DNA from: Paracoccus salsus
Lineage (GTDB): Bacteria; Pseudomonadota; Alphaproteobacteria; Rhodobacterales; Rhodobacteraceae
Direction: 5' to 3'
Assembly (NCBI RefSeq): GCF_021556615.1
Contig: NZ_JAKGGD010000001.1
Coordinates: 248,001-312,000 of the forward strand
Length of the DNA stretch: 64,000 nt
Shown here: positions 16,106 to 20,004 of the stretch, one piece after another
Layout: every line of letters begins with the position of its first letter
Numbering within the stretch: the stretch's first letter is position 1
Notes under the pieces: generated by a model
What the model was told of the DNA's origin: nothing
What the model saw: the letters and a program-made list of their open reading frames with translations, nothing else
Database searches by the model: none
Translations under genes and position numbers: made by a program

Positions 16106-18067
16106 ATGGCCGACGACCTTCTCTCCGCCGCCGACGCGGCCGCTGACAGCTATTCCGCCTCGTCCATCGAGGTGCTCGAGGGGCTGGAACCGGTCCGCAA
16201 GCGGCCCGGCATGTATATCGGCGGCACCGACGAGCGCGCGCTGCACCATCTGGTCGCCGAAATCCTCGACAACTCGATGGATGAGGCCGTCGCCGGCCAT
16301 GCCACCCGGATCGAGGTGGAACTGCTGGCCGATTTCAGCGTCGTGGTGCGCGACAACGGGCGCGGCATTCCGATCGACCCGCATCCGAAATTTCCCGGCA
16401 AGTCGGCGCTCGAGGTGATCCTCTGCACGCTGCACGCGGGCGGCAAGTTCTCGGGCGACGCCTACGAGACGTCGGGCGGCCTGCACGGGGTCGGCGCATC
16501 GGTGGTGAACGCGCTGTCCGACAGCCTGATCGTCCAGGTCGCACGCAACAAGGATCTGTTCGAGCAACGGTTCTCGCGCGGGGTGCCCGAGGGTCCGGTA
16601 CAGAGGATCGGCGCCGCCCCGAACCGCCGCGGCACCACGGTGACCTTCCACGCGGACGAACAGATCTTCGGCCATCACCGCTTCAAGCCGGCGCGGATGC
16701 TGAAGATGGTGAAATCCAAGGCCTATCTGTTCTCGGGCGTCGAGATCCGCTGGAAATCCGCGATCGATGACGGCGAAACGCCGGTCGAGGCGACGTTCCA
16801 TTTTCCGGGCGGGCTGGCCGACTATCTGTCGGAAACCCTGTCGGGCGCCTCGACCTATGCCGAACGTCCCTTCGCCGGCAGCGTCGATTTCAAGCGTTTC
16901 AACGCGCCGGGCAAGGTGGACTGGGCGATCAACTGGACGCCCTCGCGCGACGGCTTCATCCAGTCCTATTGCAACACCGTCCCCACGCCCGAGGGCGGCA
17001 CCCACGAGGCCGGGTTCTGGGCGGCGATCCTGAAGGGCGTGCGCGCCTATGGCGAACGCGTCAGCAACAAGAAGGCCGCCCAGATCACCCGCGAGGATCT
17101 GCTGGCCGGGGGCTGCGCGCTGGTCAGCTGCTTCATCCGCGAACCGGAATTCGTGGGCCAGACCAAGGACCGGCTGGCCACCACCGAGGCCGCGCGCCTG
17201 GTCGAGAACGCCGTGCGCGACCATTTCGACAACTGGCTGGCAGCCGACACGAAATCGGCGGGCGCGATCCTCGATTTTCTGGTGCTGCGGGCCGAGGAAC
17301 GCCTGCGCCGCCGGCAGGAAAAGGAAACCGCCCGCAAGTCGGCCACGAAAAAGCTGCGCCTGCCCGGCAAGCTGGTCGATTGTTCGAACAATGCGCGCGA
17401 AGGGACCGAGCTGTTCATCGTCGAGGGGGATTCGGCCGGCGGCAGCGCCAAGGCCGCCCGCGAACGCCAGACCCAGGCGCTGCTGCCGCTGCGCGGCAAG
17501 ATCCTGAACGTGCTGGGGGCCGCGTCGTCCAAGATGGGCGCCAACCAGGAGATCAACGACCTCTGCCAGGCGCTTGGCGTGGGCATGGGCAGCAGGTTCA
17601 GCATCGATGACCTGCGCTATGACAAGATCATCATCATGACCGACGCCGACGTGGACGGCGCCCATATCGCATCGCTGCTGATGACCTTCTTCTTCACCCA
17701 GATGCGGCCGCTGATCGACCGCGGGCATCTGTATCTGGCCTGCCCGCCGCTGTACCGGCTGACCCAGGGCGCGCAGCGCATCTATGTCGCCGACGACGCC
17801 GAGAAAGAGCGGATGATGGCCAAGGGCCTGGGCGGCAAGGGCAAGATCGACGTCCAGCGATTCAAGGGCCTGGGCGAGATGGACGCCAAGGACCTGAAGG
17901 AAACCACGATGAACCCCCGCTCGCGCAAGCTGATCCGGGTCAGCATCGACGACGACGAGGGCGGCGAGACCGGCGATCTGGTCGAACGGCTGATGGGCAA
18001 GAAGCCGGAACTGCGCTTTGAGTACATTCAGGAGAACGCGCGGTTCGTCGAGGAACTGGATGTCTGA
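16106..18067 (+). CDS. parE: DNA topoisomerase IV subunit B
   Basis: 653 residues. ParE supplies the ATPase and TOPRIM parts of topoisomerase IV, which decatenates sister chromosomes. Motifs: VRKRPGMYIGGTDERALHHL and DNSMDEA (GHKL ATPase), DNGRGIP, GGLHGVGASVVNAL, the TOPRIM triad in EGDSAGGSAK and DADVDGAHI, and QRFKGLGEMDAKDLKETTM at the C-terminus. The length and absence of a GyrB-type insert point to ParE. parC is not in the window. Confidence 0.95.
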   Translation: MADDLLSAADAAADSYSASSIEVLEGLEPVRKRPGMYIGGTDERALHHLVAEILDNSMDEAVAGHATRIEVELLADFSVVVRDNGRGIPIDPHPKFPGKSALEVILCTLHAGGKFSGDAYETSGGLHGVGASVVNALSDSLIVQVARNKDLFEQRFSRGVPEGPVQRIGAAPNRRGTTVTFHADEQIFGHHRFKPARMLKMVKSKAYLFSGVEIRWKSAIDDGETPVEATFHFPGGLADYLSETLSGASTYAERPFAGSVDFKRFNAPGKVDWAINWTPSRDGFIQSYCNTVPTPEGGTHEAGFWAAILKGVRAYGERVSNKKAAQITREDLLAGGCALVSCFIREPEFVGQTKDRLATTEAARLVENAVRDHFDNWLAADTKSAGAILDFLVLRAEERLRRRQEKETARKSATKKLRLPGKLVDCSNNAREGTELFIVEGDSAGGSAKAARERQTQALLPLRGKILNVLGAASSKMGANQEINDLCQALGVGMGSRFSIDDLRYDKIIIMTDADVDGAHIASLLMTFFFTQMRPLIDRGHLYLACPPLYRLTQGAQRIYVADDAEKERMMAKGLGGKGKIDVQRFKGLGEMDAKDLKETTMNPRSRKLIRVSIDDDEGGETGDLVERLMGKKPELRFEYIQENARFVEELDV

Positions 18068-18070
18068 CGT

Positions 18071-18823
18071 TCAGTCGTGCCGTGGTGGCGGCCGATAGTT
18101 CAGCCATTCCGGTTTCTCATGTAGTTCGCGCAAGGCCCTGATCTCGGGCGGCGTTCGTCTTGAATCGGCAGGCAGCGCCACCATCGACAATGCCTCCACC
18201 TCAATGGCCGCCAATCGTTCCCTGCCGTGATAAATTGTTCTAAGAAAGGCCACTTCGTCATCGTTGTGGCCCGACACAAGCTCTGTCGATATTTGCGTGT
18301 TGAAGACTGCGGAATAGACGACAACAAGCGTGGACCGCGCTACTTCGATGCAGGCTTCCACGTCGCTCCGTGAGACTCCTCCCATCTGCGTTTCGGAGAA
18401 TGTGGCCTCGCGGTCTGAATGCGCAACGTGCCAGTTTCGACGATCCCTGAGGGGTCGGCAGAGACCTTGAAACACTTTGATCCGCCCAGAAAGGTCTTTC
18501 TTGAATGGCACGTCGTCCAGAAATGACAACAGGCTTGCAAAGCTGTTGTTGCTTTTGCCTGCTGATCTCGCGGCGTCAGCGGAACGACACAGGCTGAGGA
18601 TCACATCGTCATAGAGCGCATCCTGAATTATACCGGCGGTTGTGCCAGACACACCATTCAGCAGCTCAACGCGCTCGTTGTTCGTGCCGTAGAAAGCACG
18701 GTAAACACGCCATTTAAGGCGGGTATGGACCAGTTCATTCACCAGGAACTCGACCAGTCGCTCGAGCGCGTCCACATTTTCTTGGCGGATGGCAAGGTGC
18801 CCGTCACGTTCAATCCCGGTCAT
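18071..18823 (-). CDS. HEPN/AbiU2-like protein, possible defence RNase
   Basis: 250 residues from ATG 18823; earlier starts would run into the cytochrome c gene. The protein is mostly helical. The first half has an AbiU2-like pattern: DALYDDVILSLCRSADAAR, then NNSFASLLSFL. A candidate HEPN catalytic motif R-N-x4-H (RDRRNWHVAHSD, Arg129 and His135) follows. HEPN_AbiU2 proteins include lactococcal abortive-infection factors, and HEPN proteins often cleave RNA, so an antiphage role is plausible but inferred. The last ~70 residues (EIRALRELHEKPEW and around) match nothing I know. It is a single gene, convergent with parE, and its DNA looks less GC-biased than its neighbours, which suggests transfer. 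No antitoxin partner is visible. Confidence 0.6.
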   Translation of the reverse strand: MTGIERDGHLAIRQENVDALERLVEFLVNELVHTRLKWRVYRAFYGTNNERVELLNGVSGTTAGIIQDALYDDVILSLCRSADAARSAGKSNNSFASLLSFLDDVPFKKDLSGRIKVFQGLCRPLRDRRNWHVAHSDREATFSETQMGGVSRSDVEACIEVARSTLVVVYSAVFNTQISTELVSGHNDDEVAFLRTIYHGRERLAAIEVEALSMVALPADSRRTPPEIRALRELHEKPEWLNYRPPPRHD

Positions 18824-18875
18824 CCAGCCACCTTGGAGGCTGCGGACGCGCTGTTCAAGGCATAGGTATGCTCTG

Positions 18876-19283
18876 TTATTCCTGCATCCCTTCCACATAT
18901 TCCATCAGCGCCACCAGCCGCCAGGGCGTCGGCGTCTCGATGCCGTCGCCGGTATCGTAAAGCACCGTGCGCCCTTCCAGCAGGTCGCCGAATTGCGGCA
19001 TCGGGCTTTCGCTGCGGCCCATCGTGTAGCCGTAGATATGGCTCATCACGCGGTTCTTGGGAAACACGCCGTCATTGTTGCGCGCAACCCGGGTGATGTC
19101 GGTGGGCCGAGGCTCCATGCCGGCGGCCGCCGGGCCGTCGCCCTTCCCGGTCGGGCCGTGGCAGTCCACGCACAGGTTCATGTAGTCGCTGCGGCCGGTC
19201 GTCACCTGCGTCTCGGGCGCGCAGGCTGCGATCAGTCCCGCCATCGCCACGGCGCCGATCCCGGCCAAATATACTGCCTTCAT
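18876..19283 (-). CDS. Membrane-anchored cytochrome c
   Basis: 135 residues from ATG 19283. Signal peptide MKAVYLAGIGAVAMAGLIAA followed by Cys gives a lipobox. One heme c site, CVDCH, is followed by GPTGKGDGPAA, typical of class I cytochromes c. A likely axial Met lies in ESPMPQFGDLL. It should be a lipid-anchored electron carrier in the periplasm. It ends upstream of the HEPN-like gene on the same strand, but the differing composition argues against a shared role. Confidence 0.85.
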   Translation of the reverse strand: MKAVYLAGIGAVAMAGLIAACAPETQVTTGRSDYMNLCVDCHGPTGKGDGPAAAGMEPRPTDITRVARNNDGVFPKNRVMSHIYGYTMGRSESPMPQFGDLLEGRTVLYDTGDGIETPTPWRLVALMEYVEGMQE

Positions 19284-19332
19284 TGCTGCCCCCTCTGGTT
19301 TCTTTGCGCCGACTCTGCCCCGCCTGACTGTC

Positions 19333-20004
19333 TCAGGCAACCGTTTCGTTCAGCCGGATCACCCTGTCCATCCGCCTGGCCAGTGCGTGATTATGCGTGG
19401 CGATCAACGCCGACAGCCCGGTTTCGCGCACCAGCGCCATCAGCACCGCGAAAACCCGGTCCGAGGTTTCGGGGTCCAGGTTGCCGGTCGGTTCGTCGGC
19501 CAGCAGCAGCGAGGGCGCGTTGGCCAGCGCACGGCAGAACGCGACCCGCTGCTGTTCGCCGCCCGACAGCTCGGCCGGCCGGTGATCGGCGCGGTGGGCA
19601 AGGCCGACCCGGTCCAGCAGGTCGGCCGCGCGATCGGCGGCGGCGCGCGCGCGGGTTCCGTTCGCAAGCTGCGGCAGGATGATGTTCTCGGCCGCGGTGA
19701 ATTCGGGCAGAAGATGATGGAACTGATAGACAAAGCCCAGCTCGCGACGCCGGGCCTCGGTGCGCGCCCTGTCCCCCAGCCCGGTCATGTCGCGGCCCTT
19801 GAGCAGCACCCGCCCGGCATCGGGCGTGTCCAGCAGCCCCGCGATATGCAGCAGCGTGGACTTGCCGGCCCCAGAGGGCGCGACCAGCGCGACCACCTCG
19901 CCACGCGCCACCGTCAGGTCCAGCCCGCGCAGCACCTCGACGGGCGCCGGTCCGGTCCGGCCATAGGTCTTGCCGACCGCCTCCAGCCGCAGCACCTCAC
20001 TCAT
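19333..20004 (-). CDS. lolD: Lipoprotein-releasing ABC transporter ATP-binding protein LolD
   Basis: 223 residues. The ATPase that powers extraction of lipoproteins from the inner membrane to LolA. Walker [14 protein letters not shown]-loop [12 protein letters not shown], signature [15 protein letters not shown], Walker [17 protein letters not shown]. It overlaps the 3' end of the permease gene by 8 bases, and both run on the reverse strand. Confidence 0.93.

Follow-up and report, generated by a model that had tools for sequence, protein, structure and literature searches.

An AbiU2-type HEPN gene at a polymorphic slot behind parE in Paracoccus salsus

The 64,000-nucleotide stretch of Paracoccus salsus DNA that we analysed (the window) carries, tail to tail with parE, a gene for an AbiU2-type HEPN protein. 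A polymorphic slot adjoins the 3' end of parE in the chromosome, and the gene is one of its alleles. Sequence comparison establishes the family of this protein, the conservation of its motif, the clade to which it belongs, the slot and the turnover within it. We think it fairly probable that the gene encodes a single-gene Abi-type HEPN RNase that is exchanged at this slot via the conserved flanks.

The gene lies between parE and a cytochrome c gene, where a preliminary description of the window had placed it (Table 1). The stop codons of parE and of the convergent HEPN gene are 3 bp apart, and upstream of the cytochrome-c-like gene lolD and lolE follow on the same minus strand. A longer HEPN reading frame reaching 18898 was considered and found unneeded; it would overlap the cytochrome gene. 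As had been remarked, the gene is less GC-biased than its surroundings (56% versus about 65% in the flanks): its GC is 0.559, within values of 0.546-0.574 as against about 0.61-0.69 in the flanks, and its GC3 is 0.62 versus 0.885 for parE. The earlier statement that no antitoxin is adjacent also held, the gap containing no second open reading frame (ORF) and being flanked by parE and the cytochrome gene only; neither an MNT antitoxin gene at the locus nor an abiU1 partner next to the single ORF was found. A scan of the window locus for promoters and terminators gave none, including no terminator between parE and the HEPN gene; an Rfam search of 17500-19500 gave no match, and direct repeats flanking the gene were not seen. 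Transcription probably comes from the neighbouring minus-strand genes lolE-lolD-cytochrome, with which the HEPN gene may be co-transcribed.

Table 1 Features of the parE slot in the window
Feature	Position	Strand	Basis or remark
parE (topoisomerase IV subunit B), one slot border	16106..18067	+	Gyrase-B-type domains
Variable slot, parE to cytochrome gene	18068..18875	.	Empty in some congeners, then about 50 bp long
AbiU2-type HEPN protein CDS, 250 aa	18071..18823	-	ATG at 18823; PF18734, E 3.7e-24
C-terminal extension past PF18734, residues 191-250, mostly helical	18074..18253	-	Pfam match ends at residue 190
P238-E-W-L241, clade-specific P-x-[WF]-L tail motif	18101..18112	-	Clade alignment
RNWHVAH, R129-H135, predicted HEPN RNase active-site motif	18419..18439	-	Conservation and predicted structure
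Shine-Dalgarno-like AAGGTGG 5' of the ATG at 18823	18828..18834	-	Direct sequence reading
Cytochrome-c-like lipoprotein gene, other slot border	18876..19340	-	Weak profile score

Judged by its sequence the ORF encodes a genuine HEPN_AbiU2 protein. The Pfam profile PF18734 matches residues 19-190 with 85.7 bits (E 3.7e-24), so far over the cut-off of 26.8 bits that chance resemblance is excluded, and the same profile matched all 11 members of the parE-linked clade that were scanned. No match to a non-HEPN family was obtained; PADLOC, NCBIfam and PHROGs returned nothing for the protein, a plasmid search and a PDB sequence search were likewise empty, and a phage search gave a single weak partial match. 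The RNWHVAH motif, from which an AbiU2-like HEPN protein had originally been proposed, is conserved. Across 37 aligned AbiU2-type proteins from the genomes searched, H135 is the sole invariant residue (37/37); 34 of them keep A134 and 32 keep R129, and the position after the motif arginine holds N, D or H in 33. The conserved motif is R-[ND]-x3-A-H, and R129-N130-x4-H135 of the window protein fits the Rx4-6H rule of HEPN domains, in which a polar residue follows the arginine and the motif sits at a helix end and the next loop (PMC3710099). The AF2 model computed from the 37-row alignment, which supersedes an 11-row model of middling quality, is almost wholly helical (mean pLDDT 89.6) and puts the motif where that survey describes it, at the junction between helix 123-133 and the loop that follows. 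Foldseek against the PDB found nothing at E <= 0.001, only unspecific helical matches, as it also did in a viral library, so the fold is unconfirmed by structure comparison.

The C-terminus had been called unlike that of known members. The last 60 residues do lie outside the Pfam model, but the tail is common to the clade. In the AF2 model it forms helices at 189-215, 226-235 and 239-242. Near its end all 11 full-length clade members carry P-x-[WF]-L, a motif missing from every other row of the 37-row alignment. The motif recurred in members found later, including two lepA-linked copies with an intact C-terminus (one reading PCWI), and in the gene fragments of genomes G412 and G1051; among the unbroken clade genes only that of G161, a shorter gene 1.2 kb away from parE, lacks it. 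A role of P-x-W-L as a ParE-binding motif was considered and is weakened, the tail being kept in lepA-linked members.

The AbiU2 gene is an accessory gene, PF18734 carriers making up 14/125 congeners, 24/397 genomes of the family and 14/337 of the class in a sample of one genome per species. A single-sequence search of genome contigs gave no match, because the relatives are too divergent; a three-sequence search recovered Paracoccus homiensis only, whose relative is 56% identical to the window protein. Eight of the 14 carrier congeners have the gene at the parE 3' end, with proteins mutually 26-58% identical; with 8/125 congeners so occupied, and sister species differing, the locus is far from conserved in all relatives. 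Five of these congeners (G132, G081, G084, G064 and G105) have a hemF-like gene, named by sequence reading and without a library match, on the other side, and in several of the five just a few bp separate the stop of that gene from the HEPN start; in G006 the AbiU2 gene lies 557 bp from parE, behind a BrnA gene. Outside the genus 7/23 family loci are beside parE or at most 1.2 kb away, and for 13 loci outside the family parE was absent within the 1.5 kb searched. Adjacency in 15/37 loci would be vanishingly rare by chance, although kinship makes the loci non-independent. The order parE-HEPN-cytochrome-lolD is found at several loci in other genera, making the slot older than the genus.

The convergent parE-linked genes form one clade (support 95/88), separate from a second AbiU2 lineage that occupies the same slot co-directionally with parE in three genera (three loci, of which L186 is weakly placed in the tree); on this tree the slot must have been reached at least twice. 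Searching 393 genomes of the order with a profile of the parE-linked clade added seven genomes with clade members, five of them at parE (G1070, G955, G1058, G1010 and a split copy in G1051) and two at the lepA 3' end (G956 and G942). An earlier contig-end case, G394, turned out to be a lepA locus; G412 has a parE-end copy whose parts lie on two contigs. The clade members found thus number 21, each of them 3' of a housekeeping gene: parE in 18 cases (8 in congeners and 10 in other genera) and lepA in three. The lepA 3' end is a second fixed address of the clade; the genes there form one group (100/100), come from three genera (L224, L225 and L214) and closely follow lepA in the same orientation. 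The gene was first described as an orphan, which is right in that it has no partner gene but not as regards its location, which is recurrent.

What else the slot holds was read from 117 congeneric parE 3' flanks, 48 of them in other, rearranged contexts, by simple gene calling that may miss or merge small genes. When empty the slot measures 49-52 bp between parE and the cytochrome gene, or 46-47 bp between parE and the hemF-like gene, one of the latter with a hairpin followed by T. When occupied it holds AbiU2, BrnT/BrnA, YnfA, a ChaC-like or ThyA-like protein, a trypsin-like peptidase or unknown genes. This narrow gap at the parE end seems to be a parking place for fast-changing genes; the idea of a pure defence island is weakened, YnfA, ChaC and ThyA being found there too. 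Turnover is seen between sister species. Genomes G006 and G135 are 94.2% and 96.5% identical in the two flanks and have unrelated contents (BrnA and AbiU2 versus two unknown ORFs), and G081 and G005 (94.4% and 94.6%) hold AbiU2 and YnfA, respectively. Between G000 and G083 the HEPN proteins are 57% identical versus 93% for ParE. A further pair, G132 and G105, looked like a recent allele swap from ParE C-termini 99% identical and HEPN proteins 37% identical, and was dropped, the parE DNA being just 82% identical.

Some occupants deserve mention for themselves. The BrnT/BrnA pair of G006 (L051) fills the first 560 bp after parE, ahead of the AbiU2 gene; its BrnT frame looks shifted, with the halves in two frames, a sign of a possible pseudogene or sequencing error. 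The two ORFs of G135 (L098, first 800 bp after parE) encode 194 and 68 aa and have no Pfam match above cut-off. A 154-aa protein in G007 (L144, about 100-570 bp after parE) looks HEPN-like and helical by eye, with no Pfam or PADLOC match, and G020 (L149, 13-860 bp after parE) encodes a trypsin-like peptidase (PF13365) with weak PADLOC candidate matches.

Gain, loss and replacement at the slot would proceed by homologous recombination through the flanking genes and not by a mobile element, a process inferred from the position of the breakpoints at stop codons rather than from mapped tracts. Alternatively the gene may be ancient and vertical, already next to the 3' end of parE in the ancestor of the family and subject since then to very fast evolution and many losses, with little or no transfer. 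Such a history would account for the single clade of convergent genes, for HEPN and parE stop codons that overlap in four congeners, and for a correlation between HEPN and ParE identity (Spearman 0.67 over 11 genomes; weak within the genus, 0.43), yet AbiU2 presence is scattered on the trees of the neighbouring genes, with clustering no better than that of shuffled labels. It would also fit the decaying copies of G412 and G1051, which represent two genera, both split at contig ends with IS-like sequence, the latter with an in-frame stop too. GC3, on the other hand, is lower in the HEPN gene than in parE in 11/11 genomes compared, replacement between sister species is complete with the flanks unchanged, and the lepA copies reveal a lineage able to move, so that we regard descent without exchange as rather unlikely. 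Old descent with frequent loss overlaps partly with the exchange reading, which is the simplest account. The split genes themselves were found at L183/L231 (G412) and L222/L228 (G1051), with a transposase-like frame in G1051.

As to function, an AbiU2-family protein would dimerise and cut RNA with R129 and H135, and phage infection would release the RNase from an inactive state, slowing or killing the infected cell. Stand-alone phage defence by the window gene is an inference that we draw because of its family (PMC3710099), the patchy and fast-diverging pattern of the gene, the toxin-antitoxin cargo at the slot, and a relative beside a CBASS pair on a viral contig (L205:1291-3822), where the AbiU2 gene directly precedes a CBASS-type cyclase and a 2TM effector. 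Against it speak the lack of a PADLOC match and the many slot occupants (YnfA, ChaC, the ThyA block) that are not defence genes. It is also against it that AbiU2 of Lactococcus lactis was neither toxic nor growth-inhibiting in E. coli (PMC3985639), so toxicity is not to be assumed here either. That result would suit a domesticated or inactive HEPN relative, engaged in cellular RNA processing or without a current role, as would the loss of the motif arginine in three clade members (L189, L181 and L183). The window protein and most relatives nonetheless keep R129 and H135 intact, and a patchy, fast-diverging spread is unlike housekeeping RNA processing; we consider this reading improbable.

A partnership with topoisomerase IV, in which parE would control the HEPN protein, or be sensed by it, through protein contact or antisense transcription, and the protein would guard DNA topology, draws on the position of 18/21 clade members behind parE, most of them with stops a few bp apart or overlapping, and on the terminator scan that gave none between the two genes in the window, but it is most improbable given three members behind lepA, two of which retain both their C-terminus and its motif, unrelated cargo in the same slot, and a second AbiU2 lineage whose co-directional orientation means that antisense cannot be general. 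Its fuller version is just as hard to credit: tail-to-tail transcription with parE or a P-x-W-L contact would silence the HEPN protein, and phage disturbance of topology or transcription would free the RNase. Were it true, the clade would be found almost exclusively behind parE for reasons of function and not just because the slot is convenient.

With these findings an apparent orphan becomes a subfamily that can be defined, the AbiU2 proteins with P-x-W-L in their tail, and that has definable addresses in one bacterial family, the parE 3' end and second the lepA 3' end. The parE slot can be read in any genome of the family for further small defence or toxin-antitoxin genes, and sister-species pairs with and without the gene, in flanks 94-96% identical, offer a natural test of a single AbiU2 gene. 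How HEPN-type Abi proteins act was largely enigmatic according to the 2013 survey of HEPN domains (PMC3710099).

Compared with known systems, the window protein resembles AbiU2/HEPN_AbiU2 (PF18734) of the HEPN superfamily (PMC3710099) in its profile match over residues 19-190, in R-x5-H within Rx4-6H and in its helices. It departs from other AbiU2 proteins in the 60-residue C-terminal extension of its clade, ending in P-x-W-L, and in the fixed address of the clade at the parE (or lepA) 3' end; other AbiU2 genes are reported with restriction-modification or Sel1-repeat neighbours, whereas the window gene has neither. The lactococcal AbiU abortive-infection locus holds the HEPN protein that gave the family its name but consists of two genes, abiU1 and abiU2, versus one ORF here, and HEPN-MNT toxin-antitoxin pairs share the HEPN domain with Rx4-6H, whereas an MNT antitoxin does not adjoin the window gene. 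The slot itself recalls the core defence hotspots cDHS1 and cDHS2 of Pseudomonas aeruginosa, where variable cargo likewise lies between fixed core genes (PMC10250203). The parE slot differs from them in usually holding one or two genes, in lying between protein-coding genes without a tRNA or tmRNA edge, and in that much of its cargo is unrelated to defence; exchange through conserved flanks, as we propose here, has also been proposed for cDHS1 and cDHS2 (PMC10250203).
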